The notes under the pieces: generated by a model
What the model was told of the DNA's origin: nothing
Seen by the model: only the letters and a program-made list of their open reading frames with translations
Databases searched by the model: none
Program-made: the position numbers and the translations under genes
NCBI RefSeq assembly: GCF_900215335.1
Contig: NZ_OCMT01000001.1
Coordinates: 992,001 to 1,056,000 of the forward strand
DNA: 64,000 bases
Direction of reading: 5' to 3'
From: Pedobacter xixiisoli
Lineage (GTDB): Bacteria > Bacteroidota > Bacteroidia > Sphingobacteriales > Sphingobacteriaceae
In this document: positions 3,937 to 21,160 of the stretch, piece after piece
How the letters are laid out: each line of letters starts with the position of its first letter
Position numbering within the stretch: position 1 is the stretch's first letter

Positions 3937-4032
3937 TATATTTTATATTCGCTTCATCATTTAATTTCTCGTTGAAGATTGAAATATTGATTACGTTTGT
4001 GAACCCTTAAATAACTATCTCACCTTTTGCTA

Positions 4033-7564: not shown

Positions 7565-7593
7565 TAGAAATAAATTAAAATATAACAAAAACG

Positions 7594-7624
7594 AAAAGCT
7601 TTGCAGAAATGTGAAGCTTTTTTT
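7594..7624 (+). terminator. Rho-independent terminator after the outer-membrane barrel gene
   Basis: An 8-bp stem (AAAAGCTT at 7594-7601 with AAGCTTTT at 7614-7621) is followed directly by a T-run. It lies about 30 bases after the stop of the barrel gene and separates it from the Ter operon. Confidence 0.75.
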
Positions 7625-7795
7625 GGTTTAGGTAAGGAATGAAATATAACTCCGTCCTAAAATCCGTTGTTTAGCAAATACTTGGCACAGTTGCAGGAAT
7701 GGTATCTACGGTGACTTTTCGCCTAAAATCCTTTAATTTTAAACTTAATTAGAGATTTGTGGTTTAAGAATTTATAAAAACTTAAACTAATTAAG

Positions 7796-7826
7796 TTGCT
7801 AAGGGAAGTATTAAATTTTATATTTA
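7796..7826 (+). promoter_or_regulatory. Putative Bacteroidota-type promoter of the Ter operon
   Basis: A TTG (7796-7798) lies 20 bases upstream of TATATTTA (7819-7826). This matches the Bacteroidota -33/-7 arrangement (TTTG, 19-21 bases, TAnnTTTG) except for the last -7 base. The ATG of the first operon gene is at 7845, giving a predicted leader of roughly a dozen bases. It is the best candidate for driving the whole 7845-19915 operon. Confidence 0.45.
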
Positions 7827-7844
7827 CGCTTATTTGAACGTATA

Positions 7845-8558
7845 ATGTTTAACGAACAGCTATTACAAGATTTCAGTAAATACAGACATATTTCATTTGA
7901 TTTATGGCTTACGCTCATTAGGTCAAATCCAGAATATAAACCTAAAAGAAACCAGCTTTTTAGAGATTTTTTTGCGATAGATAAACCTATCGAGGAAGTT
8001 GCCGCTGTCATTAGAAAATTCGATATCCTTACCAATGGTATCAATGAAAAGGTAAATCGAAATTTTGATACTTACGAAATCTATTGCTTAATTCTCGATG
8101 CCTTAGAGGTCAAATTGGAGAGTTATCAGCGTCAACAACTAGAAGATTTTTACAAACATACCGAAGAATTGATGATGCAGTACAAACCATTACTGCTAGA
8201 CGATAACTTGCCTAAGTTTTTAAAGCAATTGCACGATGATGGCAAAACCATGAACATCTTGAGCAATACCGCTTTTATTAAAGGCAGTTCATTGCGCCAC
8301 ATTATCGCACATTATCAACTCGATAGCTATTTCGCATTTCAGGCTTTTTCAGATGAAACTGGCTTTTCAAAACCTGGGCTAGCAATGTACGAATACGCCT
8401 ATCAAAATATCAAACTATTAGCGCCAATAGAAAAGCATGAAGTACTCCACGTGGGAGATAATGTAGTGTCCGATTATAACGGAGCGCTTGCTTATGGATT
8501 TGATGCTTATCTAATCACACACAAAACAACAGATGAATCTAAGTTACAGCCGCTATAA
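7845..8558 (+). CDS. HAD-superfamily hydrolase, first gene of the Ter operon
   Basis: This 237-residue protein has the HAD motif series: motif I HISFDLWLTLI (nucleophile Asp19), motif II LSNTAF, the conserved Lys in GFSKPGLAMYEYA, and motif IV HVGDNVVSDYNGA. The second motif-I aspartate, which acts as general acid/base in HAD phosphatases, is replaced by Trp21. Haloacid-dehalogenase and phosphonatase members also lack that Asp, so a classical phosphatase activity is doubtful. HAD proteins next to phosphoribosyltransferases are known companions of TerD-type systems and have been proposed to act in nucleotide-like metabolite processing; that role is inference here. The 3' end overlaps the next gene by 26 bases, indicating co-translation. 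Confidence 0.88.
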   Translation: MFNEQLLQDFSKYRHISFDLWLTLIRSNPEYKPKRNQLFRDFFAIDKPIEEVAAVIRKFDILTNGINEKVNRNFDTYEIYCLILDALEVKLESYQRQQLEDFYKHTEELMMQYKPLLLDDNLPKFLKQLHDDGKTMNILSNTAFIKGSSLRHIIAHYQLDSYFAFQAFSDETGFSKPGLAMYEYAYQNIKLLAPIEKHEVLHVGDNVVSDYNGALAYGFDAYLITHKTTDESKLQPL

Positions 8559-9393
8559 AATTACCGACAAAAATAATTGTCCTTTCTCAGAAAGCGAATA
8601 CAGTAAGTTTAAGTTTGGAGATAGTGCTATCGCCAGAAAATTTGCCGACGAATTATTCGATGGTTTCATTGCAGAACATAAAGACCTCATTTTATCGAAT
8701 GAAGAAATTGTAATTCTGCCAAGCCCTTATCATTCTATACCTACGGCATCAAATTACCTTAGTTTCTATTTTAAAACTAAAATGAATACCTTTCTTTATG
8801 AGCATAACAGAAAGGCATTGGTAGAATCTAAAATTTATCGAAATCAAACCTATACCACCGATTATGGTAATCTAGATTATGAACAAAGGGTAAAACTAAT
8901 TGCCAATGATACCTATTACATCGATAGAAATTTTATAGATGGCAAGCTGTGTCTGTTTTTAGATGATATTAAGATTACCGGTAGTCACGAGCATATCGTA
9001 AAAAAGATATTGGAACAGTACAATGTTCAGGGAAAATTTGTATTTATGTATTATGCTGAACTGAAAAATAGCGATATACACCCTAATATTGAAAATTATT
9101 ACAATTATTTTTACGTTAAGGATATTGAAAGTCTAAGCACAATTATTAACGCTCAGTCATTTGTGTTCAATACCCGTACGGTAAAGTACATTTTAAAACT
9201 AGAAAAAAGTGAGTTGTTGCTGTTGGTAGCGCAAGTTGAAGATACGTTGTTAGAGCAACTTTTTCATCTGGCGGTAAGCAATAATTACCATACCATAGCA
9301 GATTACCAAGAAAATCTCGCTTATATTAACCAAAGTATAAAAAATAAAATAACGCATAATTATGGCTATCAATTTACAGAAGGGTCAACGTGA
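8533..9393 (+). CDS. Phosphoribosyltransferase-like protein of the Ter system
   Basis: This 286-residue protein carries the PRTase PRPP-binding loop FLDDIKITG (residues 142-150): hydrophobic strand, two acidic residues, then TG. An upstream LPSPYHSIPTASNY segment could form part of the substrate pocket. No signal peptide or TM helix is seen, so it is cytosolic. It overlaps both neighbours (26 bases with the HAD gene, 32 with terD), so the three are almost certainly one translational unit. PRTase plus HAD genes are reported partners of Ter operons, where they are thought to make or modify a nucleoside-like metabolite. The substrate cannot be read from sequence. The C-terminal about 90 residues have no recognised motif. 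Confidence 0.8.
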   Translation: MNLSYSRYKITDKNNCPFSESEYSKFKFGDSAIARKFADELFDGFIAEHKDLILSNEEIVILPSPYHSIPTASNYLSFYFKTKMNTFLYEHNRKALVESKIYRNQTYTTDYGNLDYEQRVKLIANDTYYIDRNFIDGKLCLFLDDIKITGSHEHIVKKILEQYNVQGKFVFMYYAELKNSDIHPNIENYYNYFYVKDIESLSTIINAQSFVFNTRTVKYILKLEKSELLLLVAQVEDTLLEQLFHLAVSNNYHTIADYQENLAYINQSIKNKITHNYGYQFTEGST

Positions 9394-9916
9394 GACTCTT
9401 AATGCACCAAAATTCACGATAGGTTTAGGATGGGATACTAACGCAACTTCTACAGGAGCTGCTTTTGACCTTGATGCATCGGTATTTATTCTTGGCGAAA
9501 ACAAGAAAATTATTGCCGATGAGTTTTTTGTGTTTTACAACAACCTTAAATCTCCAGATGAAGCGGTAGAGCACACCGGAGATAATCTTACAGGAGACGG
9601 CGATGGTGATGACGAGCAAATCAATGTTGATTTATCTAAAATAGATCCTAGGGTAACTGAAATCTGTATTGTAGTGACTATTCACGATGCTGACGCTAGA
9701 AAGCAAAACTTTGGGCAGGTAAGAAACTCATTTGTACGTATTGTAGATTCTGTTACTGGTAACGAATTGGTGAAATACGAATTGGAGGAAGATTTCTCAA
9801 TTGAGACTGCGGTTGAATTCGGCAGGATTTACAAAAGAAACGACGAGTGGAAGTTTGAGGCCGTAGGTGCTGGCCAACGTGGCGGATTAGAGCAATACGT
9901 AACTAAATACAACTAA
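9362..9916 (+). CDS. terD: TerD-family protein, copy 1
   Basis: This 184-residue protein starts with the TerD hallmark MAINLQKGQR. It has the core WDTNATSTGAAFDLDASVFIL, interrupted here as WDTN and FDLDASVFIL, and the acidic metal-binding stretch GDNLTGDGDGDDEQ. The end EWKFEAVGAGQRGGLEQYV is typical. TerD proteins are cytosolic calcium-binding beta-sandwich proteins linked to tellurite, phage and stress resistance. It is roughly three-quarters identical by eye to the copy at 12627-13181 and of the same length, so the two are paralogues from duplication. The ATG lies inside the preceding PRTase gene, and the next terD-like gene starts 3 bases after the stop. The symbol is used at family level; terE is equally possible. 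Confidence 0.95.
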   Translation: MAINLQKGQRETLNAPKFTIGLGWDTNATSTGAAFDLDASVFILGENKKIIADEFFVFYNNLKSPDEAVEHTGDNLTGDGDGDDEQINVDLSKIDPRVTEICIVVTIHDADARKQNFGQVRNSFVRIVDSVTGNELVKYELEEDFSIETAVEFGRIYKRNDEWKFEAVGAGQRGGLEQYVTKYN

Positions 9917-9919
9917 AAC

Positions 9920-10528
9920 ATGGCTATCAATTTAGAAAAAGGACAGCGCATTAACTTAGAAAAAAGTAATGGTGCTAAGTTGCAAAGTATATGTGTAGGT
10001 ATCAACTGGGGTGCTATTGTAAAAAAAGGTTTATTCGGAAATAAAAAAGAACCGGTAGATCTTGATGCAAGTTGTGCAATTTATGACGAGAACAAAAGAA
10101 ATTTAGATACAGTAAGCTTTAGACAGTTAAAATCTAGAGATGGTGCCATTAAACACAGTGGTGATGATTTAACAGGCGATCTTAATGGTGACGATGGCTT
10201 GGACAATGAAGTAATTACGCTTGATTTGAGCAAGTTAAACCCTGCAGCAAATTATGTAGGTTTCTTCATCAATAGTTTTCGTGGGCAAGATTTTAAAGAT
10301 ATCCCTTTTGCTTCGATTAGAATTTATGAGGGCACACCTACCAGAGTTAACGAAGTTTTTGCCAAATACGATATAGCAAACGATAGTGCTTTTGCAGGTA
10401 ACGTTTCTATGGTTTTAGGCGTGTTTTACAAAAGAAACGGCGATTGGAAATTCAACGCTATCGGTCTTCCTACAGCCGACAGAAACTTGGAACAAACTGT
10501 AGTAACCATTCAACAAAACCATTTATAA
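9920..10528 (+). CDS. TerD-family protein, TerZ-like, copy 1
   Basis: This 202-residue TerD-superfamily protein shares the MAINLEKGQR start but has a different core (CVGINWGAIVKKGLFGNKKE, then VDLDASCAIYDEN) and the acidic loop GDLNGDDGLDNE. The insertion after INWG and the Cys in DLDASC are features I associate with the TerZ/TerA-like branch. It is expected to be a cytosolic metal-binding protein. It follows terD by 3 bases and precedes the TelA-family gene by 1 base. A paralogue with the same features lies at 13209-13868, so the terD-terZ-like pair has been duplicated as a unit. Confidence 0.92.
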   Translation: MAINLEKGQRINLEKSNGAKLQSICVGINWGAIVKKGLFGNKKEPVDLDASCAIYDENKRNLDTVSFRQLKSRDGAIKHSGDDLTGDLNGDDGLDNEVITLDLSKLNPAANYVGFFINSFRGQDFKDIPFASIRIYEGTPTRVNEVFAKYDIANDSAFAGNVSMVLGVFYKRNGDWKFNAIGLPTADRNLEQTVVTIQQNHL

Positions 10529-10529
10529 C

Positions 10530-11618
10530 ATGGAAAATAATGAACTTAGCTTAACTGCTACCGCATCTCCGATAGACAAAGAAGGAAATGTAACTTTAGA
10601 GAACATCAAAGAAGCAGACTTAGCGACTTATAAAAACATCTCTGATAAGCTTTCGGAAAAGGATACAAATTCTATTCTGAACTTTGGTGCCGAAATACAG
10701 AATTCTATTTCTCGTCAGAGTGATACCTTTTTAACCAACGTTAGAGCGCAACAAGGTGGGGAAGTAGGAGGGTTAATCAACGAACTATTAGCCGAGTTGA
10801 ATTATATCGACGTTAATGAGCTTAACCAAAATGCGTTTCAAAGGTTTATCTCAAATGTTCCTTTTCTTAAAAGGTTGGTTGTTGACGTAAAGAAACTGTT
10901 TCAGAAATACGATAAAATTACCGCTAACGTAGACAAGATTAGCAACAAGGTTAAAGCAGGGATGATTAACTCTGTGAAAGATAACACCTCGTTGCAAACC
11001 ATGTTTGATAGCAATGTTAGCTTAATTAAAGAGCTTGAAAATTACATTGTAGCAGGTCAGTTAAAGTTTAAAGAACTAACTGAAGAGCTAGCGGTAATGG
11101 AAGGCAATCCGGCTAACTATCAAGATTATGAAATCGCTGATAAAAGAACTTTCATCAATAGGTTAGATAAAAGACTGGCTGACATGAAGATTGTTCGTTT
11201 CATCCTGTTACAATCTTTGGCGCAAATACGTGTGGTGCAAAACAACAATACTTCTATTGCAGAAAAAGCACAGAGTATTTTAACCACCACCATGCCGGTT
11301 TGGAAAAACCAGTTGACTTTGGCTGTTGCATTGCAAAGACAGAAGCAAAACATTGAAGTACAGCGAAAAGTTTCGGAAACTACCAATACCATTTTGCGTA
11401 AAAATGCCGAAATGTTGCAACAAAACAGCATTGAAGTAGCCAAAGAAAATGAGAACACGGTGGTATCTTTAGAGACATTGCAAATGACTACCAAATCGTT
11501 GATAGATACACTTAATGAAGTGAAACAAATTCACGAACAAGGCACGCAAAAGAGAAGAGAATTAGATGCCGGATTACAAAGTTTAGAAGCTGAATTAAAA
11601 AAGGGAGTAGTTAACTAA
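10530..11618 (+). CDS. telA: TelA-family toxic anion resistance protein
   Basis: This 362-residue protein has no membrane segment and is mostly helical. It has long heptad-like stretches in the last 120 residues (EVQRKVSETTNTILRKNAEM and onward) that suggest coiled coils. Overall composition and motifs such as FISNVPFLKRLV, YKNISDKL and LAVALQRQKQNIEVQ match the TelA/KlaA family, associated with tellurite and other toxic-anion resistance and frequent in ter clusters. Its biochemical role is unknown. It begins 1 base after the TerZ-like gene. A 23-base gap with no obvious regulatory element precedes the next gene. Confidence 0.9.
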   Translation: MENNELSLTATASPIDKEGNVTLENIKEADLATYKNISDKLSEKDTNSILNFGAEIQNSISRQSDTFLTNVRAQQGGEVGGLINELLAELNYIDVNELNQNAFQRFISNVPFLKRLVVDVKKLFQKYDKITANVDKISNKVKAGMINSVKDNTSLQTMFDSNVSLIKELENYIVAGQLKFKELTEELAVMEGNPANYQDYEIADKRTFINRLDKRLADMKIVRFILLQSLAQIRVVQNNNTSIAEKAQSILTTTMPVWKNQLTLAVALQRQKQNIEVQRKVSETTNTILRKNAEMLQQNSIEVAKENENTVVSLETLQMTTKSLIDTLNEVKQIHEQGTQKRRELDAGLQSLEAELKKGVVN

Positions 11619-11641
11619 AAACTCCCGTATGGTAACATGAG

Positions 11642-12625
11642 ATGGTGGAAGGGTTGGAAGAAATATATGCTCAGATAATTAAGGACAGTGCCAAAAGGCT
11701 ACGGGTTGTAAAAATGTTATCCAACTTTTTTAACCATAAGGATCTCTTTGCAGTTTACATTCGCACAAAGGTGATTCATAACCTTTTTGAGTCTAATAAA
11801 AATCTAGATATAAATAAGCTGGAACTGTTTCATATACAATATACCAGTAGCTTAATTGAATTGTTCCAGAAACTTAAGAAATCTAAAGAGCAGCAATATT
11901 TATTAATTACCGATGAGATTTATATCAACGATGATCTCATCAAAAAACTAGAACAGGAGACAGAAGGCAGCAATTTTCAAATTGCGGCTAAAAAGCATGG
12001 TACGCTTATGTCTAGCAAACTTCGGGAGATTTATACCATGCTAGATGCTGGCACTGCTTCTCCCACGTTTGGCTGGGGCGACATCATGGTGTTTTCTGCT
12101 CGTAAGGGTAAGGAGTTTTTTAGAGAGTTGCCAGGTGGCGAAGCTTTTTTACAACTCACAGAATGCGCTGGAAAAAAGACCTATCAAGCAGAGTATGCTG
12201 TAATTGAGAAAAAGCTAATAGGTAAACTTAATAAGCTGAATTTCAGAGTGAAGTTTGCCTGCGGCTTAAGGTTTGAAAATGAATATGTAGAGGTTTTTGA
12301 TTTTGTAGACTCGAACGATCAGTTTATATTTATTAATAGTATTAAAACATTTTACCTGCTCGACGAGATAATGTCTGAAGGTTTAGATTTATCGAGAAAC
12401 AGTTCTGATAAGGCAACAATTGTATTTGAATTGAGAAGCAAAAATGTTTTGTTGCGAGATAAGTTGACTACCGTTAAAACATCACTTCCCGAAAGTGTAG
12501 AAGAAGTGTTAGCAGGTTATCTGGCAAAGATATCGGGAGTTGATTTTCTAGAAGAACTGCAAAATGTAGACGAGCAGACCAATATTTTACGAGCAATGTT
12601 AAACATCAATATCAACACAAAATAA
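11642..12625 (+). CDS. Uncharacterised 327-residue protein inside the Ter operon
   Basis: I do not recognise a family. The protein is soluble by inspection. It has an all-helical N-terminal part (about 1-110, Lys/Leu-rich) and a central segment with Gly/aromatic clusters (TFGWGDIMVFSARKGKEFF and ELPGGEAFLQL). A probable alpha/beta C-terminal part includes FACGLRFENEYVEVFDFVD. It sits between telA and the second terD copy, with only a 1-base gap to the latter, so it is an integral member of the operon. The start is ATG 11642, two bases after a stray overlapping ATG that gives only 13 codons. Function cannot be assigned; a role as adaptor or partner of TelA/TerD is inference from position. Confidence 0.85.
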   Translation: MVEGLEEIYAQIIKDSAKRLRVVKMLSNFFNHKDLFAVYIRTKVIHNLFESNKNLDINKLELFHIQYTSSLIELFQKLKKSKEQQYLLITDEIYINDDLIKKLEQETEGSNFQIAAKKHGTLMSSKLREIYTMLDAGTASPTFGWGDIMVFSARKGKEFFRELPGGEAFLQLTECAGKKTYQAEYAVIEKKLIGKLNKLNFRVKFACGLRFENEYVEVFDFVDSNDQFIFINSIKTFYLLDEIMSEGLDLSRNSSDKATIVFELRSKNVLLRDKLTTVKTSLPESVEEVLAGYLAKISGVDFLEELQNVDEQTNILRAMLNININTK

Positions 12626-12626
12626 A

Positions 12627-13181
12627 ATGGCAATAAATTTAGAAAAAGGACAAAGACAAAATATCAGTGCCCCAAAGTTTACCGTAGGTTTGGGTTGGGA
12701 CGCTAATTCAAGCAGTACTGGCGAAGCATTTGATTTAGATGCATCTGTATTTGTTTTGGGTGCAAATGGCAAATTAATTAGCGATAGCCACCTCATCTTT
12801 TACAATAACCTAAAATCACCAGATGAGGCGGTAATACATGCAGGAGATAACCTAACTGGAGCAGGCGATGGCGACGATGAGCAGGTAATTGTAGATCTAT
12901 CAAAAATTGCAGATGCCGTAAATGAAATCTGTTTCGTTGTAACCATTCACCAAGCAGAAGCTAGAAGACAAAACTTTGGTCAGATCAGAAATTCATTTAT
13001 CCGTATTGTAGATGGCGCTAACAATGCTGAATTAGTAAAATACGAATTAGATGAAGACTTCTCTATTGAAACTGCGGTAGAATTCGGAAGACTTTACAAA
13101 AGAAATAACGAGTGGAAATTTGAAGCGGTAGGTTCGGGATTAAAAGGAGGACTTCAAGATTTCTTGAATAAATACAACTAA
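12627..13181 (+). CDS. terD: TerD-family protein, copy 2
   Basis: This 184-residue TerD protein is collinear with copy 1 at 9362-9916. It shares MAINLEKGQR, APKFTVGLGWD, FDLDASVFVLG, the acidic loop GDNLTGAGDGDDEQ and EWKFEAVGSGLKGG. Differences are spread along the sequence, so the duplication is old and both copies appear functional. The acidic loop residues expected to bind calcium are retained in both. It begins 1 base after the stop of the unknown 327-residue gene. Confidence 0.95.
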   Translation: MAINLEKGQRQNISAPKFTVGLGWDANSSSTGEAFDLDASVFVLGANGKLISDSHLIFYNNLKSPDEAVIHAGDNLTGAGDGDDEQVIVDLSKIADAVNEICFVVTIHQAEARRQNFGQIRNSFIRIVDGANNAELVKYELDEDFSIETAVEFGRLYKRNNEWKFEAVGSGLKGGLQDFLNKYN

Positions 13182-13208
13182 ACTTAACCAAAATAAACAG
13201 ATACTACT

Positions 13209-13868
13209 ATGGCAATTAATTTATCTAAAGGTCAAAAAATCGATCTTAAAAAAAGTACGGGCGAAACACTTACCAATTTTTGTGTTGGCGTTAACTGGGG
13301 CGCAATTGAAACAAAAGGTTTCTTAGGGCTGAGCAAAAAAGTACAAAATATAGATCTTGATTTAAGCTGCATACTTATTGATGAGAACAACACTATTTGT
13401 GATCATTTATATTCGCCACTTTACCGTGTAGAGGTTTTACAGCAATTTGGTTTGCCAAAAGGTAAGCTGGTTACTGTCGATAATGCAATGAGACACACAG
13501 GAGATGATTTACAGGGAGACTCTGGTGGCGACGATGGCTTAGACAATGAAATCATCACCGTAGATTTAAGTAGAATTTCACCTAACGTTGCGCAGATATT
13601 CTTTTTCTTAAACAATGCGGGTAGCGAAGATTTCTCACAAATTCCTTACTCAAAAATTAGAATGTACGAAGGTACACCTACTCATGTAAAATCTGAGTTT
13701 GCGTCTTACAATGTTTCTGCTGAGTCGCAATATGTGGGTAAACAATCTATCATTATGGGTAAATTGTACAAACGCAACAACGAATGGAAATTTAGTGCTA
13801 TCGGCGATCCAACAGAAGATACTTTCTTAGGTCAGACGATACATCGTATTGTTCAGTCTTATTTGTAA
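13209..13868 (+). CDS. TerD-family protein, TerZ-like, copy 2
   Basis: This 219-residue protein resembles the copy at 9920-10528 in the start, in the CVGVNWGAIETKGFLGLSKK segment, the acidic GDSGGDDGLDNE loop and the C-terminal WKFSAIGDPTED. It carries an extra insert of about 15-20 residues (around DHLYSPLYRVEVLQQFGLP) before the acidic loop, so it is longer than its paralogue. It is a probable cytosolic metal-binding member of the Ter complex. Gaps are 27 bases upstream and 3 bases downstream. Confidence 0.92.
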   Translation: MAINLSKGQKIDLKKSTGETLTNFCVGVNWGAIETKGFLGLSKKVQNIDLDLSCILIDENNTICDHLYSPLYRVEVLQQFGLPKGKLVTVDNAMRHTGDDLQGDSGGDDGLDNEIITVDLSRISPNVAQIFFFLNNAGSEDFSQIPYSKIRMYEGTPTHVKSEFASYNVSAESQYVGKQSIIMGKLYKRNNEWKFSAIGDPTEDTFLGQTIHRIVQSYL

Positions 13869-13871
13869 GCG

Positions 13872-14285
13872 ATGAAAATCAAGAATATCGATGGCTTAAG
13901 TGTATCAGAGATACAAGCCATTGTAAACGACGGAGGCAGGTTTGTGTTTTTTCCTTACACTGTTTCCGTGGTTCTTGCCACTTTTAAAAGAGCTTCGTCT
14001 ATCTACCTCATCAGACCTTATGAAAAATCTATCAAGTACTCTTACAAGCATGTAATTACCAATGCTGTGGTAGGTTGGTGGGGTATTCCTTGGGGGCCGA
14101 TCTATACCATCGGATCAATTTATGATCACATGAAGGGTGGCAAAGATGTAACAGATATTGTGATGAGCGAACTGTTACAAAACGATCCCGAAGCAAATAC
14201 CAGCACTTACAATATTGGAGGTGTAGTATCATCTAACGCGGTACAAAGAGACGATCAACCGCCAACGTATAATATTCCAAGGTAA
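13872..14285 (+). CDS. Small conserved-looking protein with a WWGIPWGP motif, in the Ter operon
   Basis: This 137-residue protein has a striking aromatic/Gly/Pro motif GWWGIPWGPIYTI at about residues 68-80. It is preceded by GGRFVFFPYTVSVVLATFKR and SIYLIRPYEKS, and followed by MKGGKDVTDIVM. The central region is hydrophobic enough for one or two membrane-associated segments. I recall similar short proteins with the same motif in many bacteria, all uncharacterised. The last 30 residues are polar and Pro/Asn-rich. Position between the TerD pair and the two TerY genes, with gaps of 3 and 10 bases, makes it part of the operon. A membrane tether is a possible role (inference). Confidence 0.82.
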   Translation: MKIKNIDGLSVSEIQAIVNDGGRFVFFPYTVSVVLATFKRASSIYLIRPYEKSIKYSYKHVITNAVVGWWGIPWGPIYTIGSIYDHMKGGKDVTDIVMSELLQNDPEANTSTYNIGGVVSSNAVQRDDQPPTYNIPR

Positions 14286-14295
14286 ACGATAAGCT

Positions 14296-14931
14296 ATGAG
14301 AAGACTACCAGTTTATTTTCTACTTGATACTTCTGGGTCTATGTATGGCGAGCCCATACAGGCGTTAAATAATGCGCTGAGCGGAATGATAAACACCTTG
14401 CGTAGCGATGCGCAGGCGTTGGATTCCCTTTGGATCAGTATCATCACGTTTGATAGAGAAGTAAAAGAAGTTGTGCCGCTTACAGAGTTGGTACAATTTC
14501 GCCTACCAGAAATTACCTGCCCGCAAAGCGGACCAACCAATACAGGCGCCGCTTTAGATTTTGTGATGAACAAAGTTAGACAAGATGTAATTAAAGGATC
14601 AGATACGCAAAAAGGAGATTGGAAACCGTTATTGTTCCTTTTTACTGATGGAAAACCAAGCGACATTCAATTGTACCACGAAAAAACAGCCGAAGTACGT
14701 GCTTTTGATTTTGGTGCTGTAGTGGGTTGTGCTGCTGGTCATTTGGCAAACGATGCCATGTTAAAGCAGCTAACCGACAATGTAGTTCACCTCGATTCGG
14801 CCGATAGCCAAACGCTTAAAACGTTTTTCAAATGGGTAAGCGAAACCATAGAGCAAGGCAATAAAAGTCAGGGTACGGGCGAAGTTTCAAAACTACCACC
14901 ACCACCTAGCGAAATTACCGTAGTTATTTAA
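14296..14931 (+). CDS. terY: TerY-like von Willebrand factor A domain protein
   Basis: This 211-residue single vWA domain protein starts RRLPVYFLLDTSGSM. It has an intact MIDAS: DxSxS (Asp11, Ser13, Ser15), the Thr in GPTNTGAAL and the Asp in LFLFTDGKPSD. There is no signal peptide, as expected for cytosolic TerY. The C-terminus is a short Pro-rich tail (KLPPPPSE). TerY proteins occur in ter clusters with a PP2C phosphatase and a protein kinase, exactly the arrangement that follows here. It probably binds partner proteins through a metal ion at the MIDAS. Its closest neighbour is the second vWA gene 11 bases downstream. Confidence 0.93.
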   Translation: MRRLPVYFLLDTSGSMYGEPIQALNNALSGMINTLRSDAQALDSLWISIITFDREVKEVVPLTELVQFRLPEITCPQSGPTNTGAALDFVMNKVRQDVIKGSDTQKGDWKPLLFLFTDGKPSDIQLYHEKTAEVRAFDFGAVVGCAAGHLANDAMLKQLTDNVVHLDSADSQTLKTFFKWVSETIEQGNKSQGTGEVSKLPPPPSEITVVI

Positions 14932-14942
14932 CAGAACAACCT

Positions 14943-15992
14943 ATGAGAAGGCTTCCAATATATTTTCTTATCGATATTTCTGAGTCGATGGTTGGCGAAC
15001 CTATACAGCAGGTAGAAGAGGGATTGGCGAGTATCATTCAAGCCCTAAAATCTGATCCTTATGCTTTGGAAACCGTTTGGGTATCCATTATCGTATTTGC
15101 GGGCCAGCCTAAAACTTTGGTGCCCTTGCAAGAGATCGTGAATTTTTATCCACCACGTTTTCCAATCGGGAGCGGAACTTCGTTAAGCAAAGGGCTAGGG
15201 CATTTGATGTATGAGCTTCGAAACAATATCGTAAAAACTACTTATGATCAAAAAGGCGACTGGAAACCCATCATCTTTTTATTTACAGATGGTGTACCTA
15301 CAGATGACACCACTGCTGCCATAGGCGAGTGGAAACGCAATTGGCAACGTTCTACCAATATGATTGCCATTTCGTTCGGCAACGAAGCAGATGGTGCCTT
15401 ATTGGGGCAATTGACCAATGAAGTACATCTATTCAAAAATACGAGCCCACAATCTTATAAAGAGTTCTTTAGATGGGTATCTGATTCTATTAAAACCAGT
15501 AGCGTTAGTGTAGAGAGCAATTCTTCGGGCTTTGAATTGGCTAAAACCAATGGCGATACCATTTCTAAAATAGATTTATCAAAAGCAGCAGATAAAAAGC
15601 CTTTGGTAGATGATAATTTCGTGGTACTTGCTGCAAAATGTCAAAACACTAATCGTCCGTATTTAATGAAATATACCAGAAACCTCAACGAAGGTGATTT
15701 TGGAGGGATGAAACTCTTGACCAAATCTTATCGCCTTGCAGGAGCATTTCCGGTAGATAATTCGTATTACGAGCTGGCAGATGACAAAGTAGAAAACAGA
15801 ATTCATAGCGACGAATTGATAGGTGCTCCCAACTGTCCTTGCTGCGGTAATCCTTACGGTTTAGCAGTTTGTGCTTGCCAAAAAATACATTGCTTAGGCG
15901 AAGAGTTAGAAAGCACTTGCCCTTGGTGTGGCACTAAAGGCAAATATGGCTTGGGTAACGGTGGTTTCGATATTTCAAGAGCCCAAGGCTAA
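14943..15992 (+). CDS. TerY-like vWA protein with C-terminal zinc ribbon
   Basis: This 349-residue protein has an N-terminal vWA domain (about 1-200) starting RRLPIYFLIDISESM, with MIDAS residues Asp11, Ser13 and Ser15, the Thr of GSGTSLSKG and the Asp of LFTDGVPTDD. A linker domain (about 200-290) leads to a Cys-rich end: CxCC at 298-301, CxC at 310-312, Cys317 and CPWC at 326-329. These are consistent with a zinc-binding TerY-C type domain. It is a longer sister of the preceding gene and probably acts with it, and with the kinase that carries a similar zinc ribbon. The TAATG junction overlaps the next start by one base, which implies translational coupling to the phosphatase. Confidence 0.92.
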   Translation: MRRLPIYFLIDISESMVGEPIQQVEEGLASIIQALKSDPYALETVWVSIIVFAGQPKTLVPLQEIVNFYPPRFPIGSGTSLSKGLGHLMYELRNNIVKTTYDQKGDWKPIIFLFTDGVPTDDTTAAIGEWKRNWQRSTNMIAISFGNEADGALLGQLTNEVHLFKNTSPQSYKEFFRWVSDSIKTSSVSVESNSSGFELAKTNGDTISKIDLSKAADKKPLVDDNFVVLAAKCQNTNRPYLMKYTRNLNEGDFGGMKLLTKSYRLAGAFPVDNSYYELADDKVENRIHSDELIGAPNCPCCGNPYGLAVCACQKIHCLGEELESTCPWCGTKGKYGLGNGGFDISRAQG

Positions 15993-17386
15993 TGGACGAA
16001 ACAGACAGGTACATACGGGCACTTTTGCAACAACAAGGCATTAGCATTGACGAAAATCAAAGTGAATTGTTTCGGGCATTTGTAAATACAGAAGCAAACA
16101 TTAACAGCGTAAAAAATATTCGGCTACTTCAACAAAACATGACAAAAGATTGGAAAATAATAGCTCGGCGAGCAGAAATTAATGCTTTGCAGCTAGCTTT
16201 TCCAAATGGAATAGCAGGCAAGCCCTATCAAACTAAATTCGACTTTAAGCAATATGGACTGGAAGACATTACCTCTTATGGTTTAAGCGGGTTTGAAAAT
16301 ACTGGTTTGGCCTATGATGCTAATTCAAAAACAATTAGCGGTACGCCTAAAACTAGTGGAGATATCGCAATGCTTTTTAGTTATAATTTTGAAGGCGAAG
16401 ATGAAAATAGCCCTTTAAACGAGAAGAAAGTAACGATTATCATCAACCCAGATCCTAAATCGTTATGGAAAGATATTCCTAGTGATACGAATGATATTTA
16501 TGCAAAGGCAGATAATGTAGCTGAAACAGCTTCTCTTTTAGATTTTACCTTACTTGCGGCTTCAAAAAGAGGTCGCTCACATGCTAATAAGGGTAGTTTT
16601 AGAGATGATGATTATGCTTACGCTGAATTGCAAAATGGTTGGGGTATTGTAGCCATCTCAGACGGCGCAGGCTCTGCCAAGTTTTCACGCAAAGGTTCGC
16701 TTTTGGCATGCAATGCTGTGGTCGATTATTTTACCACGCACTTTAGCTTAGAAAATGTTGCGTTATTGGATGAAGCCATCACCATTTATCAAACAGATAC
16801 TTCCATAAGAGCTAAGTTGCTCGATATTGCCGGAGCACATTTATCAGCGGCAGCTAAAAAAGCTTATGCAACAATTAATGATTTTGCGCTGGATGCTAAT
16901 GCATCAGTTAGCGATTTTCATGCAACCTTAGCTTTTGTACTGGTAAAGAAATTTGCAAATGGTTATGCCTTTTTAAGCTTTTCTGTAGGCGATTGTCCAA
17001 TGGCGCTCGTTAATAAATCTTTTGAATGGGTAAAGCCACTCAATAAGCTAGATGTGGGCGAATACGGCGGCGGAACGAGGTTCATCACCATGGAAGATAT
17101 TTTTACGAAAGAAAACTTTGAAGAACGTTTTAATTTCGAATTTACAACTGATTTGCCATACCTGGTTTTAATGACAGATGGTATTTACGACCCGAAATTT
17201 GAAGTTGAAGCTAACCTGGCGAAAACTGAAAAATGGAAACTCTTTTTCGAAGATTTGGAAGGAAATAATAGTGAAGGGATAAATGCGCTATCAAAAGATG
17301 CTGATAACCAGAGCAACCTATCTGATTGGATGGATTTTTGGAGCCCAGGTAACCATGATGATAGAACTTTAATTGTTTTATCTTAG
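15992..17386 (+). CDS. PP2C-type protein phosphatase with an N-terminal Ig-like (He_PIG-type) domain
   Basis: The protein has 464 residues. The C-terminal two-thirds (about 185-460) is a PP2C fold with FRDDDYAYAEL, the metal-binding VAISDGAGSAKFS (Asp224), FLSFSVGDCPMALV and YLVLMTDGIYDPKF. Residues about 64-152 look like a putative Ig domain of the He_PIG type: FPNGIAGKPYQTKF, then GLAYDANSKTISGTPKTSG. Such domains are normally found in secreted surface proteins, but no signal peptide is present. The first 60 residues are helical. TerY, PP2C and kinase triads are known in Ter systems; this enzyme probably reverses the neighbouring kinase. It overlaps the zinc-ribbon vWA gene by one base. Confidence 0.92.
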   Translation: MDETDRYIRALLQQQGISIDENQSELFRAFVNTEANINSVKNIRLLQQNMTKDWKIIARRAEINALQLAFPNGIAGKPYQTKFDFKQYGLEDITSYGLSGFENTGLAYDANSKTISGTPKTSGDIAMLFSYNFEGEDENSPLNEKKVTIIINPDPKSLWKDIPSDTNDIYAKADNVAETASLLDFTLLAASKRGRSHANKGSFRDDDYAYAELQNGWGIVAISDGAGSAKFSRKGSLLACNAVVDYFTTHFSLENVALLDEAITIYQTDTSIRAKLLDIAGAHLSAAAKKAYATINDFALDANASVSDFHATLAFVLVKKFANGYAFLSFSVGDCPMALVNKSFEWVKPLNKLDVGEYGGGTRFITMEDIFTKENFEERFNFEFTTDLPYLVLMTDGIYDPKFEVEANLAKTEKWKLFFEDLEGNNSEGINALSKDADNQSNLSDWMDFWSPGNHDDRTLIVLS

Positions 17387-17392
17387 CTTTTG

Positions 17393-18916
17393 ATGATGAA
17401 TATAGTAACCGTGAGGTCGGTGAACGACCCAAATAAGACATATCAGTTTAACGATAATGGCGAACCGATGAGGGGAGGGATAAAGGATGTTTATTTCAGT
17501 CCTGATAAATCTTACGTGGTGGCGCTGTTTAGAGATAAATTGGATGAGAATCAGAAAGAACGGTTAAAGAGAATTACCAATTATTATCGTCCACAAATAC
17601 AAAATAAAGAAGCTGCAGATTATTTTCTGGAGGAGGTTTTTCGTTGGCCAGCAGATGTGGTGGAGCATAGAGGTTTAACAGGCATCATCGTTCCAACGTA
17701 TAAAGGGAAATTCTTTTTTAAGCAGGGACACGAAACAGGAGATTTAATTAAAGGCAAGGAAAAGAACGGAAAATGGTTTGCTGCGGCTAAGTTCAGAAAC
17801 GAGCAGTTTCCGTTAAGAGTGGCGAAAGCAGAGTTAGGTAACTGGTTAAGCTACTTTCAAATCTGTGTTAACTTGGTGCGTGGCGTTAAAAAAATGCATG
17901 CCATGGGCTTGGCACATTCTGATCTTTCTTACAATAACGTGTTGATAGACCCGATAGAAAAATCGGCTTGTATGATAGATTTAGATGGGCTGGTAGTACC
18001 TGGTCTATTTCCTGCGGAAGTAATTGGCACTGCCGAGTTTATTGCGCCAGAGGTATTGGCAACAAAACACTTGGACAAAGCCGATCCAAATAGGGTATTA
18101 CCAAGTAGATTGACAGATTTACATGCATTGCCTGTGCTGATTTATATGTTTCTATTACATCGCCACCCATTAAAAGGCGGTAAAGTACATAACTTAGATA
18201 CAGAAATGGACGACTTGTTGTCGATGGGAAAAGGGGCATTGTTTATTGAGCATCCAACAGATCATAGTAATAGACCAAAAGTCAATCGTTTTTCTAAATG
18301 GGATTTACCATGGAGCGATATCAATAAATTACCATATTCCATTACCGGTCCTTATTTGACAGAGATGTTCAATAGGACTTTTATAGAAGGATTGCATCAT
18401 CCACAAGAAAGACCACCTGCCGAAAGCTGGGAACAAGCTTTGCTTAAAACAGTTGATCTAATGCAGCAATGTACAAATCCGTCTTGTAGTGAAGGTTGGT
18501 ATGTGTTTGATAATTCTACAGAACCTAAATGTCCATTTTGTGGTACAAAACATAAAGGAACGTTACCAATACTCGATTTTTATTATGAATTTAGTCCGGG
18601 AGTTTGGAAGCCTGATAATTCGAGGTTAATGGTGTACAATAATCAGTATTTATTTAACTGGCATGTAGACCGTAACGTGGTAAGAAATGAACGTTTAGAT
18701 CCTAAAGATAGAGTGCCTGTTGGCTATTTTACCTTTTACGAAGGGCAATGGGTTTTGGTAAATCAGAAACTGGAACACATGAAAGATTTAACAGTGAATA
18801 AGGATGTGCCAGTAAATGAAATGATAGTACTTACACAAGGGAAAAAAATCCTACTTTCTACAGAAGAAGGTGGAAGACTAGTATTGATAACAATAACAAA
18901 TGAAAAACAATCTTAA
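17393..18916 (+). CDS. Serine/threonine protein kinase-like protein with C-terminal zinc ribbon
   Basis: The protein has about 507 residues (ATG at 17393 preferred; a TTG one codon upstream and a second ATG at 17396 are alternatives). The kinase fold shows a Gly-rich loop (MRGGIKDVYFS), the catalytic loop AHSDLSYNNVLID (Asp177) and a DLD metal motif in MIDLDGL in place of DFG, then GTAEFIAPEVL. The beta-3 segment reads YVVALFRDK, so the usual VAxK lysine is not in its normal position. Residues about 355-385 form a zinc ribbon (CTNPSC and CPFCG), followed by a beta-rich tail. Together with TerY and PP2C it forms the phospho-signalling module of the operon. Activity should be considered likely but atypical. 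Confidence 0.9.
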   Translation: MMNIVTVRSVNDPNKTYQFNDNGEPMRGGIKDVYFSPDKSYVVALFRDKLDENQKERLKRITNYYRPQIQNKEAADYFLEEVFRWPADVVEHRGLTGIIVPTYKGKFFFKQGHETGDLIKGKEKNGKWFAAAKFRNEQFPLRVAKAELGNWLSYFQICVNLVRGVKKMHAMGLAHSDLSYNNVLIDPIEKSACMIDLDGLVVPGLFPAEVIGTAEFIAPEVLATKHLDKADPNRVLPSRLTDLHALPVLIYMFLLHRHPLKGGKVHNLDTEMDDLLSMGKGALFIEHPTDHSNRPKVNRFSKWDLPWSDINKLPYSITGPYLTEMFNRTFIEGLHHPQERPPAESWEQALLKTVDLMQQCTNPSCSEGWYVFDNSTEPKCPFCGTKHKGTLPILDFYYEFSPGVWKPDNSRLMVYNNQYLFNWHVDRNVVRNERLDPKDRVPVGYFTFYEGQWVLVNQKLEHMKDLTVNKDVPVNEMIVLTQGKKILLSTEEGGRLVLITITNEKQS

Positions 18917-18931
18917 ATTAACCAAAAAATA

Positions 18932-19915
18932 ATGGACAATCTAATCAATCACCCTGGAATAATTGCAGTATTTTCAGTGGTAATTTTAATTATGCTGCTA
19001 CTAGATTTGGGCATTTTCAACAAGAAAAGCCATGAGGTGTCTAACAAAGAAGCCATCACTTGGTCGTTAGTATGGATAAGCCTTTCAATGATTTTTAGTG
19101 GGGTAATCTACTACTTTATGGGCGTAGAGAAGTTCTCTCAATTTCAGTCGGCCTATTGGATAGAAAAAGCCCTTTCGGTAGATAATCTTTTCGTGTTTAT
19201 TCTCGTATTTGGTTTTTTTAATGTACCTAAGCATTTACATCATAAAGTACTATTTTGGGGTATTATTGGTGCATTGGTACTAAGAGCTATCTTTATTTTC
19301 AGCGGTGTGGGCTTAATTAAGCTTACCTATCTTCCCGAAATGGTAATTCTAGGCTATACCCTTAAAATTAATGTTGTACTTACACTATTCGGTATCTTCT
19401 TAATTTACGCAGGTATTAAATCTTGGTTTGCAGAAGATGACGATGACGAAGAAAAAGATTTCAATAAAAGCCCTGGTGCTAGGGTGGTACACAAGTTTTT
19501 TAAGGTAAGTTCTAATTACGATGGAGATAAGTTTTTTACGATTGAGAACGGAAAGAAACTAGCTACGCCTTTATTGGTTGTAGTTGGTGTTATTGAATTT
19601 ACCGATTTACTTTTCGCAGTAGATTCTATCCCTGCTATTTTCGCTATTGCACCAGACGATCCGTTTATACTTTATACTTCAAATATTTTCGCGATTTTAG
19701 GCTTGAGAGCACTTTATTTCTTATTAGCTAACTTCATCCATTTGTTTAGCAAACTTAAGTTCGGTTTGGCCATTATTCTTGCTTTCATTGGTGTTAAAAT
19801 GGTGATTTCTCCAATTTATCATATCGAATCAATTCATTCACTATTGGTAGTAGCTGGCGTGTTAATTTTGTCGGTACTCGCATCAGTGATGTTTCCAGAA
19901 AAAGCAGAAGAATAA
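18932..19915 (+). CDS. terC: TerC-family integral membrane protein
   Basis: This 327-residue protein has about eight to nine hydrophobic helices. It carries family features including the acidic intramembrane LLLDLGIF near residue 25, EKALSVDNLFVFILVF around residue 80 and TDLLFAVDSIPAIFAI around residue 225, plus an acidic cytoplasmic loop (DDDDEEKDF). TerC proteins are inner-membrane proteins implicated in tellurite resistance and metal (often manganese) export. In Ter systems they are the membrane hub for TerD. It is the last gene of the operon, 15 bases after the kinase, and a strong terminator follows. Confidence 0.95.
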   Translation: MDNLINHPGIIAVFSVVILIMLLLDLGIFNKKSHEVSNKEAITWSLVWISLSMIFSGVIYYFMGVEKFSQFQSAYWIEKALSVDNLFVFILVFGFFNVPKHLHHKVLFWGIIGALVLRAIFIFSGVGLIKLTYLPEMVILGYTLKINVVLTLFGIFLIYAGIKSWFAEDDDDEEKDFNKSPGARVVHKFFKVSSNYDGDKFFTIENGKKLATPLLVVVGVIEFTDLLFAVDSIPAIFAIAPDDPFILYTSNIFAILGLRALYFLLANFIHLFSKLKFGLAIILAFIGVKMVISPIYHIESIHSLLVVAGVLILSVLASVMFPEKAEE

Positions 19916-20039
19916 TTACCTGCGGATAGGTACTTCGTGTTATAAGCGATGTAAATAGGTTTATAACATATTTTTTGAGGTGAAAAGAATTATATCCTCA
20001 TGTTTGTTCAGATATAATAGAACTGATAACTAATTTATG

Positions 20040-20090
20040 ATCCCGAAAAAGAATTTAGTTTTTACTGAATCTTTTCCGGGATTCTTTTTT
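20040..20090 (+). terminator. Rho-independent terminator of the Ter operon
   Basis: A long hairpin (ATCCCGAAAAAGA from 20040 pairing with TCTTTTCCGGGAT ending near 20083, one mismatch, loop of about 18 bases) is followed by TTCTTTTTT. It lies 125 bases after terC and marks the end of the 12-kb operon. Confidence 0.85.
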
Positions 20091-20251
20091 AATTACTTCC
20101 AGATTTTAGAAATATTTGTGTTTTACACTACAGCGCTGTAGGGCATAAGGCAGGTTTTAGAGCAAATTGCTTAGTTTATTTTAAGGGGTACTCACCGAAT
20201 CACTCACTTTTTTTATGGGAATTCGTGTAAGTTTTGGTAAAATCCTAAAAG
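20091..20251. other. Gap between the Ter operon terminator and the tRNA-Lys terminator
   Basis: Together with the tRNA and flanks this belongs to the 654-base stretch between terC and ubiX that has no protein gene. I see no further structured element in this part apart from a short GC-palindrome around 20129-20140 (CTACAGCGCTGTAG). Confidence 0.4.
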
Positions 20252-20289
20252 GAAAAACCCTGCTAATCGTGCGATTGCAGGGTTTTTTA
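20252..20289 (-). terminator. Terminator downstream of tRNA-Lys
   Basis: A GC-rich stem (CCCTGC with GCAGGG, flanked by A and T runs on both sides) sits just beyond the 3' end of the tRNA. On the minus strand it reads as a hairpin followed by five Ts. It could also work on the plus strand, where six Ts follow. Confidence 0.75.
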
Positions 20290-20297
20290 GATCTTTG

Positions 20298-20370
20298 TGA
20301 TCCCGCTGGGATTCGAACCCAGGACCACTACATTAAAAGTGTAATGCTCTACCAGCTGAGCTACGGAATC
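20298..20370 (-). tRNA. tRNA-Lys (anticodon UUU)
   Basis: This 73-nt cloverleaf reads from 20370 to 20298 on the minus strand. The acceptor stem GATTCCG pairs with CGGGATC (one G-T wobble), followed by discriminator A. The D-arm is AGCTCAGCTGGTAGAGC. The anticodon stem-loop TTACACTTTTAATGTA gives anticodon TTT, and the T-arm contains GGTTCGAATCC. The CCA end is not encoded (the genome reads CAA after the discriminator region). Confidence 0.96.
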
Positions 20371-20582
20371 TTCCTTTTTTGAAGAACTTCTTCGTTCTAA
20401 GGAGGTGCAAATATAGAAATAGGTTTAATTACCTGCAAATAAAAAATAGAGATAAGTTGTACTTCGCTGATTTAGAGCGTAATTATTTATTTCGCACAAT
20501 TAGAAACTCTAATTTTAGGGCTATAAACGATGATTTTATCTAACTAATACGGTTTTTTGAAGCTAGCTAGTGCATCAGGTTG

Positions 20583-20590
20583 TATATTTG
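20583..20590 (+). promoter_or_regulatory. Putative -7 element of ubiX
   Basis: TATATTTG matches TAnnTTTG exactly and lies only 3 bases before the chosen ATG at 20594. A T-run with TTG (20557-20559) lies 23 bases upstream, slightly long for the -33 box. If used, transcription would start at or within the start codon, giving a leaderless mRNA. Confidence 0.35.
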
Positions 20591-20593
20591 TAT

Positions 20594-21160
20594 ATGCTAA
20601 ATAAAAAGAAAATCGTAGTTGCCATTACAGGAGCCAGTGGTTCAATTTATGCTAAACTCTTGTTAGACAATTTGAAAGCACTACAGTCGCAGATAGATAA
20701 AGTGGGCATTGTAATGTCTGATAACGCAAAAGAAGTTTGGCGTTACGAATTAGGTAATGACGATTATGATAGCTACGGTTTCGATTTCTATGCAAAAATG
20801 GATTTCAATGCACCTTTCGCATCAGGTTCGGCAAAATACGACACGATGATCATTGCACCTTGTTCTATGGGCGCATTAGGACGTATCGCTCACGGTATCT
20901 CTAACGATTTAATTTCTAGAGCTGCTGATGTGATTTTGAAAGAACGAAGAAAATTGATTGCTGTAGTTCGTGATACCCCTTTCAGTTTGATTCATTTAAA
21001 TAACATGAAGGCATTAACAGAAGCTGGAGGAATTATCTGTCCTGCTAATCCGTCTTTTTACAGTTTGCCAAAAACGATAGAGGAAGTTGCTCAAACGGTA
21101 GTAGACAGAGTTATTGATTTAGCAGGTTTAGAAAAAGAGAGTTATCGCTGGAACGACTAA
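20594..21160 (+). CDS. ubiX: UbiX family flavin prenyltransferase
   Basis: The protein has 188 residues from the ATG at 20594, which starts MLNKKKIVVAITGASGS. The Rossmann-like flavin-binding start ITGASGSIYAKLLL, IIAPCSMGALGRIAHG and the conserved ERRKLIAVVRDTPFSLIHLNNM are diagnostic of UbiX/Pad1. It makes prenylated FMN from FMN and dimethylallyl phosphate for UbiD-type decarboxylases. No ubiD gene lies in this window. An in-frame GTG 24 bases upstream would add eight residues with no family similarity and is rejected. The gene is apparently monocistronic; mtaB follows after 111 bases containing a 7-bp-periodic array. Confidence 0.93.
   Translation: MLNKKKIVVAITGASGSIYAKLLLDNLKALQSQIDKVGIVMSDNAKEVWRYELGNDDYDSYGFDFYAKMDFNAPFASGSAKYDTMIIAPCSMGALGRIAHGISNDLISRAADVILKERRKLIAVVRDTPFSLIHLNNMKALTEAGGIICPANPSFYSLPKTIEEVAQTVVDRVIDLAGLEKESYRWND

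Follow-up and report, generated by a model that had tools for sequence, protein, structure and literature searches.

A Bacteroidota variant of Ter stress-response operons pairs a constant core with an optional TerY-P cassette

The window analysed here, a 64,000-nucleotide (nt) stretch of Pedobacter xixiisoli DNA (contig NZ_OCMT01000001.1, positions 992,001 to 1,056,000), carries a run of 14 consecutive + strand open reading frames (ORFs) at 7845-19915 (window coordinates throughout) that form a Ter-type operon. The operon is a Bacteroidota variant of known Ter systems. It is made up of a core that is constant in gene order across relatives and a TerY-P cassette that is an optional add-on beside it.

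The run opens with a HAD-fold protein whose motif I reads D-L-W-L-T (7845-8558; Pfam PF00702, E 5.2e-12) and with PRTase_3, a ComF-like phosphoribosyltransferase (PRTase) with an intact phosphoribosyl pyrophosphate (PRPP) motif, DDIkITGsHE (8533-9393; PF15610, 8.6e-82). A first TerD (9362-9916; PF02342, 1.1e-73; 5e-54 to the solved TerD 2kxt) and a first TerZ-like TerD-domain protein (9920-10528; PF02342, 8.9e-33) come next, then TelA (10530-11618; PF05816, 2e-93) and U327, an unnamed family of 327 amino acids (aa) without a Pfam, NCBIfam or PDB relative (11642-12625). Behind U327 lie a second TerD (12627-13181; PF02342, 6.5e-74), which also occurs in Flavobacterium operons without TerY-P, a second TerZ-like TerD-domain protein (13209-13868; PF02342, 1.2e-29) and U137, an unnamed small protein of 137 aa with the motif GWWGIPWGPIYTIG (13872-14285). 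The TerY-P triad, in which TerY-like vWA, PP2C and Ser/Thr kinase genes stand side by side, follows in the order vWA, vWA-TerY_C, PP2C, kinase. The first of these is a TerY-like vWA protein with the metal ion-dependent adhesion site (MIDAS) motif DxSxS, conserved as DTSGSM (14296-14931; PF00092, 1.9e-13), and the second adds a TerY_C metal-binding domain (14943-15992; PF15616, 1.9e-45). The PP2C phosphatase (15992-17386; PF13672, PP2C_2, 3e-30, residues 193-422) precedes a Ser/Thr-type kinase with four conserved Cys and a C-terminal extension (17390-18916; PF00069, 7.1e-9, confined to positions 102-212 of the 263 in the profile). For this ORF the called start is the TTG at 17390, and ATG codons come next at 17393 and 17396. 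Last comes TerC of the Alx type, a membrane metal exporter family (18932-19915; PF03741, 3.4e-48; TIGR03718, 349.8 bits at a cut-off of 246.4).

Intergenic distances are, in order, -26, -32, 3, 1, 23, 1, 27, 3, 10, 11, -1, 3 and 15 nt. Upstream, a motif scan found a promoter-like site, TTG-N20-TATATTTA (7796-7826, + strand), common to the window and six of the loci compared below (L020-L025; L and G numbers are our handles for loci and genomes). Its general form, TTG-N19-21-TATATTTA, resembles the Bacteroidota promoter consensus (-33/-7 type). About 120 nt past terC stands an intrinsic terminator (20039-20093, + strand), a strong hairpin at 20039-20083 with a T tract (-19.9 kcal/mol, z -5.0); the hairpin is absent from the list of a consensus terminator scan. 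The only Rfam family above its gathering score in 7400-20700 is tRNA. A preliminary description drawn from the letters alone had spoken of a one-strand run with gaps of 1-27 nt or overlaps and of one terminator closing it, and both agree with the computed layout. Pfam confirmed all of its motif-based family names (HAD, PRTase, TerD, TerZ-like, TelA, vWA, PP2C, kinase, TerC) and likewise agrees with its picture of a Ter-type operon that joins a metabolite pair to TerD, TelA and TerC and to a TerY-P module. The two genes it could not name, at 11642-12625 and 13872-14285, have no Pfam or NCBIfam match, the NCBIfam scan having covered 10 of the 14 proteins, these two among them. A predicted single transcript for all 14 genes is plausible.

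A U327 alignment was used to scan 84,980 species, each represented by one genome, and gave 199 stretches with a relative, of which the best 80 were kept; these are biased to close relatives, and all bear Bacteroidota titles. The order HAD, PRTase, TerD, an optional TerZ-like gene, TelA, U327 holds in 80 of 80 loci. Tens of other species repeat this gene order, which excludes chance. Of the 80 loci, 42 have a TerZ-like gene ahead of TelA and 38 do not, and U327 stands directly behind TelA in 78. A 121-aa ORF separates TelA from U327 in two Flavobacterium loci that belong to the window's clade, L024 (9588-9953) and L025 (9614-9979), neither of which showed a TerC next to the core. Downstream of the Flavobacterium operons L021-L025 of that clade come ORFs of roughly 248-259 and 675 aa. 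Co-occurrence was counted in 296 sampled Bacteroidota genomes. There, U327 (single-sequence search) and PRTase_3 above cut-off are found in the identical 8 genomes, and TelA above cut-off in those 8 and in G002. Discarded as noise were a U327 profile match in G125 (E 8.8e-4, 69 positions within a 955-codon frame), sub-cut-off PRTase_3 in three genomes (G070, G109, G180) and sub-cut-off TelA in four.

Within Pedobacter, 69 of 145 genomes have a U327-type match, and 20 regions were fetched from them: 18 carry the same native core, L119 is the second copy of the long type found in the window, and of L137 only a decayed remnant is left. The U327 gene is decayed or broken in two Pedobacter genomes, that of L137 (G362) and G297, and the core is therefore being lost in places. 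In eight native operons (L120, L122-L125, L129, L135 and L138) a distant TerC-like protein, with 25-27% identity, adjoins the HAD gene, and beyond it, in most of these loci, ORFs of about 125, 143 and 339 aa follow one another. Elsewhere, the TerD, TerZ-like and TerC genes are kept together without the TerY-P cassette in seven loci, and the second TerD/TerZ-like pair therefore belongs to the core side in Flavobacterium. The placement of TerC bears on the suggestion that the operon serves metal or oxyanion homeostasis, with TerC exporting Mn2+ or another metal, TerD buffering Ca2+, the remaining genes regulating TerC, and phage phenotypes as side effects. TerC here is of the Alx type and above the NCBIfam cut-off, TerC proteins export Mn2+ according to passages of PMC12096827, and passages of PMC12054061 credit Klebsiella terC with a contribution to zinc and tellurite resistance. 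However, window-type TerC is non-adjacent in 10 of the 18 native Pedobacter operons (8 with the 25-27% TerC-like gene, 2 with none), whereas PRTase, HAD, TelA and U327 are constant, and no riboswitch family was found at E 0.5 in 7400-20700. We consider homeostasis unlikely to be the operon's main role.

The TerY-P cassette behaves differently from the core. TerY_C occurs in 31 of the 80 loci, or in 30 of 72 when the count is restricted to loci that extend 8 kb or more downstream (7 of 79 checked loci have less than 8 kb beyond U327; L023 stood outside that check and is left out). The other 49 loci have the core without TerY_C as far as the fetched DNA extends. In 27 of the 28 loci that have the cassette on the same strand, the last TerZ-like gene precedes it and terC follows it; the 28th, L026, stops at a contig edge. 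In three Chitinophaga loci, core and TerY-P are convergent operons. Three genomes of a family other than the window's, all with a short operon (G277, G210 and G265), carry a TerD-TerD-vWA-TerY_C-PP2C(-kinase) set unlinked to the core, the contig of G265 stopping ahead of the kinase gene. TerY_C is beside the core in none of 37 Chryseobacterium loci (L069 and L077 are short downstream), and none of the 18 native operons read in Pedobacter has TerY-P there. A tree was built from 93 concatenated rows of PRTase, TelA and U327 (quick method, support from the Shimodaira-Hasegawa-like approximate likelihood-ratio test, SH-aLRT, only, some long branches flagged); on it, TerY-P presence beside the core changes 6 times, at least 5 by supported branches; a few absences on the tree could stem from contig ends. 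TerY-P is thus an optional add-on and not locked to the core.

The preliminary description had held the modules to be locked into one transcript, and had named a gene-neighbourhood comparison across Bacteroidota as a possible refutation. In that comparison the modules are not kept together, and the lock fails. What survives is the functional link, because all 6 of the 296 genomes with TerY_C are among the 8 with the core (hypergeometric 3e-11, a value uncorrected for kinship and drawn from three genera only). Could the 14 genes then be two or more abutting operons, independently regulated and without a joint function? The plastic arrangement, convergent in Chitinophaga and unlinked in three genomes, would fit, as would the intervals of some 155-275 nt, free of called genes, that precede a vWA or TerY_C gene in many Flavobacterium copies and the 113 nt ahead of the kinase gene in Pedobacter ureilyticus. 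But no gap in the window exceeds 27 nt, TerY_C is found only in core genomes, and the whole set moved as one unit, all of which makes this explanation highly improbable.

Several features mark the cassette. The kinase motifs HSDLSynN, IDlDG and C-x4-C...CPFC are conserved (31 rows for the Cys pattern), and a further ~120 residues stand C-terminal to the zinc-ribbon-like four-Cys pattern. U137 is present in 20 of the 80 loci, in all 20 together with TerY-P, and its GWWGIPWGPIYTIG motif is conserved in 17-21 sequences. The stretch GWWGxPWGPIYTIG suggests a membrane or hydrophobic hairpin. The structural model of U137 is poor (predicted local distance difference test, pLDDT, 57). No Pfam family was matched among 17 relatives of U137, apart from one weak match in one member (best E 0.16), and plasmid records gave no match. 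An extra ORF of 151-163 aa, missing from the window, lies between the second vWA and TerY_C in L030, L033, L035, L038 and similar Flavobacterium loci.

The window's copy probably has another history than the native Pedobacter operons. Its nearest named locus is that of P. ureilyticus (L020), with a U327 that is 90% identical, and the two are nested within a Flavobacterium clade (SH-aLRT 100 and 96), whereas the 12 native Pedobacter operons in the tree form a separate, fully supported group. The type that is 90-100% identical occurs in 2 of the 145 Pedobacter genomes; 67 others match at 39% identity or less, or as fragments. The DNA common to the window and P. ureilyticus spans 7737-19912 at ~82% identity, and the flanks of the fetched 20-kb loci have no match to window positions 1-30000. 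In three close relatives without a U327 match (G331, G412, G418) the right flank is shared only as far as the tRNA-Lys gene or ~100 nt past it. The promoter-like site lies upstream of the operon in 6 of the 80 loci, L020-L025, a distribution that coincides exactly with the window's own tree clade. Because of the nesting in Flavobacterium, the unmatched flanks and the promoter-like site common to the clade, the whole unit, promoter included, is best read as having been acquired horizontally as one Flavobacterium-like piece. The tRNA-Lys gene (20297-20370, - strand) is a synteny breakpoint, in that synteny with L169-L172 ends there or ~100 nt beyond. Integration into this gene (20297) is unsupported, as the 22-base tRNA 3' end has no second copy in the window; no tyrosine-type integrase was found in the window, the nearest lying ~194 kb to the left on the contig (serine integrases were not part of that search). 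Left of the operon, at 769-5064, an AraC-type regulator adjoins a hybrid histidine kinase that combines several PAS domains with a response-regulator domain. On the other side, a 690-aa ORF without a Pfam match at E 1e-4 stands amid metabolic genes at 42023-44095 (- strand).

U327 is the constant neighbour of TelA and matched no Pfam or NCBIfam family. Pfam scans of 24 relatives gave scattered weak matches (best E 0.0018), no family being shared by more than 3 members, and a PDB sequence search found no relative (E about 1 at best). Plasmid and phage records yielded nothing at E 1e-5, and IMG/VR no confirmed relative. The model of U327 (mean pLDDT 84, predicted template modelling score 0.59) consists of helices, a small beta-containing middle domain, further helices and a low-confidence C-terminal tail. 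Foldseek gave E 0.2 at best against the PDB and 0.23 against viral models; VIA-align gave Z up to 8.9 to proteins with long helices (flagellins, SMC hinges, F-BAR), a range common for helical models that allows no assignment. That U327 is a duplicate of TelA was ruled out (hhalign probability 0.5% over 18 columns). The tail is among its most conserved stretches, with TNIL..MLN[LIV]N[LIV]N in 66 of 79 sequences, and the remaining 13 keep NIL[RK].MLN with changes behind it. Because this C-terminal end is both conserved and, in the model, flexible, it suggests a docking peptide, with TelA as the simplest partner.

In the HAD protein, the window and 106 of 106 relatives have the motif S-F-D-[LV]-W-L-T, which is D-x-W and not D-x-D; the relatives came from 113 scanned loci, at least 3 of them fetched twice. 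Asp is retained as nucleophile, motifs II-IV are conserved as well, and Trp occupies the acid/base position D+2. The Asp at D+2 acts as acid/base in HAD enzymes, and typical HAD phosphatases depend on it; HADs in which D+2 has changed are also known. In PRTase_3, the PRPP motif DDIkITGsHE, of the DD-x-x-x-TG type, is conserved in 81 rows. With Trp at D+2 in the HAD, the assumed pathway of PRTase plus phosphatase may not apply in this operon. The nucleotide-type enzyme pair of the preliminary description thus stands as far as the presence of a PRTase and a HAD goes, while the label itself is uncertain.

TerD, TerC, TelA, PRTase/HAD companions and TerY-P triads are named components of Ter systems in passages of PMC7824862 and PMC11090510, so the word 'undescribed', which the preliminary description used of its candidate variant, is too strong. 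In the model outlined in parts of PMC7824862, PRTase and HAD proteins make signals, TerB and TerD sense, TerC sits in the membrane and TelA below it; parts of PMC11090510 treat TerY-P as a metal-sensing phosphorylation switch. Compared with the Ter stress-response systems of Anantharaman, Iyer and Aravind 2012, as cited in these passages, the window likewise has four TerD-domain proteins, TerC and TelA, and likewise has PRTase and HAD companions, but its HAD is without the D+2 Asp, its metabolite module is cut to HAD and PRTase_3, and U327 and U137 have no library family. None of the papers listed by our search of open-licence literature, to which the 2012 Ter survey does not belong, gives an account of this Bacteroidota operon, of U327 or of U137; part of these findings may already stand in that survey.

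Plasmid ter clusters offer a closer comparison. Those of Aromatoleum aromaticum EbN1 (L174) and Lelliottia amnigena (L175) have the same order of vWA, vWA-TerY_C, PP2C and kinase, with kinases 50-51% identical to the window's, and in both an additional vWA and a TerD gene precede this set; in Aromatoleum, TerC comes behind the set, after an 80-aa ORF. Relatives of vWA-TerY_C occur in 2309 of 72,556 plasmid records, and the window's protein is 40-44% identical to the 20 best. The metabolite genes of the two clusters are different: they encode ATP-grasp, another phosphoribosyltransferase, StiP, an HpcH/HpaI-type lyase and a hypothetical D-L-D-D-T protein. None of HpcH/HpaI-type lyase, ATP-grasp, StiP or a second PRTase was found by Pfam within the window's operon (ATP-grasp and StiP were sought in the operon only). 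Beside the phosphoribosyltransferase, the plasmid gene has D-L-D-D-T-L, the usual phosphatase form, in contrast to D-x-W here; its product matches the HAD-type Hydrolase_3 above the Pfam cut-off in Aromatoleum, with only sub-cut-off HAD-type matches in Lelliottia. The plasmid clusters have TerB, with neither TelA nor U327 beside them. In Bacillus subtilis, yceCDEFGH is one operon of three TerD genes, the TerC-family exporter MeeF/YceF, YceG and the TelA protein YceH. Its gene next to TelA is that of YceG, presumably a different partner from U327, and the operon is not known to include PRTase/HAD or TerY-P.

Is the operon then mainly an anti-phage defence, in which TerY-P senses infection and, by phosphorylation, causes the Ter core to keep phages from entering or injecting at the membrane? 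Going by the available descriptions of the Gao 2020 type and of Pseudomonas aeruginosa TerY-P, the defence triads share vWA, PP2C and kinase with the window. TerY-P protects P. aeruginosa populations from phage, with most cells surviving (excerpts of PMC10889362), TerY-P-like modules are stand-alone defence systems (PMC11090510, in part, citing Gao 2020), and enterobacterial ter genes are tied to phage inhibition and colicin resistance (PMC12054061, in part, citing Whelan 1995). A patchy distribution and horizontal transfer would suit such a role. The Gao-type triad is described as stand-alone with an OB-fold behind the kinase, whereas the window's kinase bears a zinc-ribbon-like Cys cluster and belongs to a Ter operon. 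Against a defence role, the Pfam matches include neither a nuclease nor a known killer domain, the core is widespread in Pedobacter (apart from the two long-type genomes, 67 of 145 have a U327-type match), and most core loci read are without TerY-P. PADLOC, run on 13 of the 14 proteins, gave generic weak matches only (best the kinase to PD-T4-6, 3.2e-5); plasmid TerY-P proteins score in the same generic way, so this says little. On balance, a mainly anti-phage function seems doubtful.

We favour a Bacteroidota-type Ter stress-response operon of two units, the core and TerY-P, a reading of function that we regard as evenly poised. HAD and PRTase_3 would make or process a nucleotide-like signal from PRPP, and the Ca2+-binding TerD and TerZ-like proteins would respond to that signal or to metal. 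TelA and U327 would form an assembly below the membrane, U327 docking through its tail, and TerC would move a divalent metal across the membrane (Mn2+ in the best studied relatives). The vWA-kinase-phosphatase cassette would be a reversible phosphorylation switch that tunes the core and that the core can dispense with. The net effect would be to protect envelope and metal balance under oxyanions, oxidants, phage or colicin-like attack. The roles of PRTase/HAD, TerD, TelA, TerC and TerY-P are proposed because of the published Ter, TerY-P and TerC models, as given in parts of PMC7824862, PMC12096827 and PMC11090510.

Several points weigh against this two-unit reading. The signal-making step could be wrong, given a HAD without the D+2 Asp. 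In native Pedobacter the core does not strictly include TerC, because window-type TerC is non-adjacent in 10 of 18 operons. TerB, a common though not universal Ter member, and C-C_Bond_Lyase each have 0 matches in the whole genome. The Pfam match of the kinase is restricted to part of the domain, the U327 model has no informative structural neighbour, and the 80 loci, as the best of 199, lean to close relatives. A more specific form of the two-unit reading goes further, to a Ter pathway of the Bacteroidota's own: the HAD, a non-phosphatase with Trp at D+2, and PRTase_3 would make a signal unlike that of plasmid ter clusters, a membrane-associated TelA-U327 complex with U327 as obligate tail-docking adaptor would read it, and TerY-P would be a plug-in kinase switch repeatedly gained and lost. 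We put this forward tentatively, as a minority possibility.

The role of Ter genes has been open for decades, and the comparison narrows a 14-gene puzzle to a constant core of 5-6 genes with an optional switch. Added here are that architecture, the TelA-U327 pairing, the departure of the HAD active site from the assumed chemistry, and cassette-like transfer. TelA's constant, unmodelled companion gains a clear prediction of a docking peptide. All gene types of the operon occur together in Flavobacterium johnsoniae strain CI04 (L041), and F. johnsoniae is genetically tractable, so core-only and core-plus-switch states could be compared there by gene deletions.

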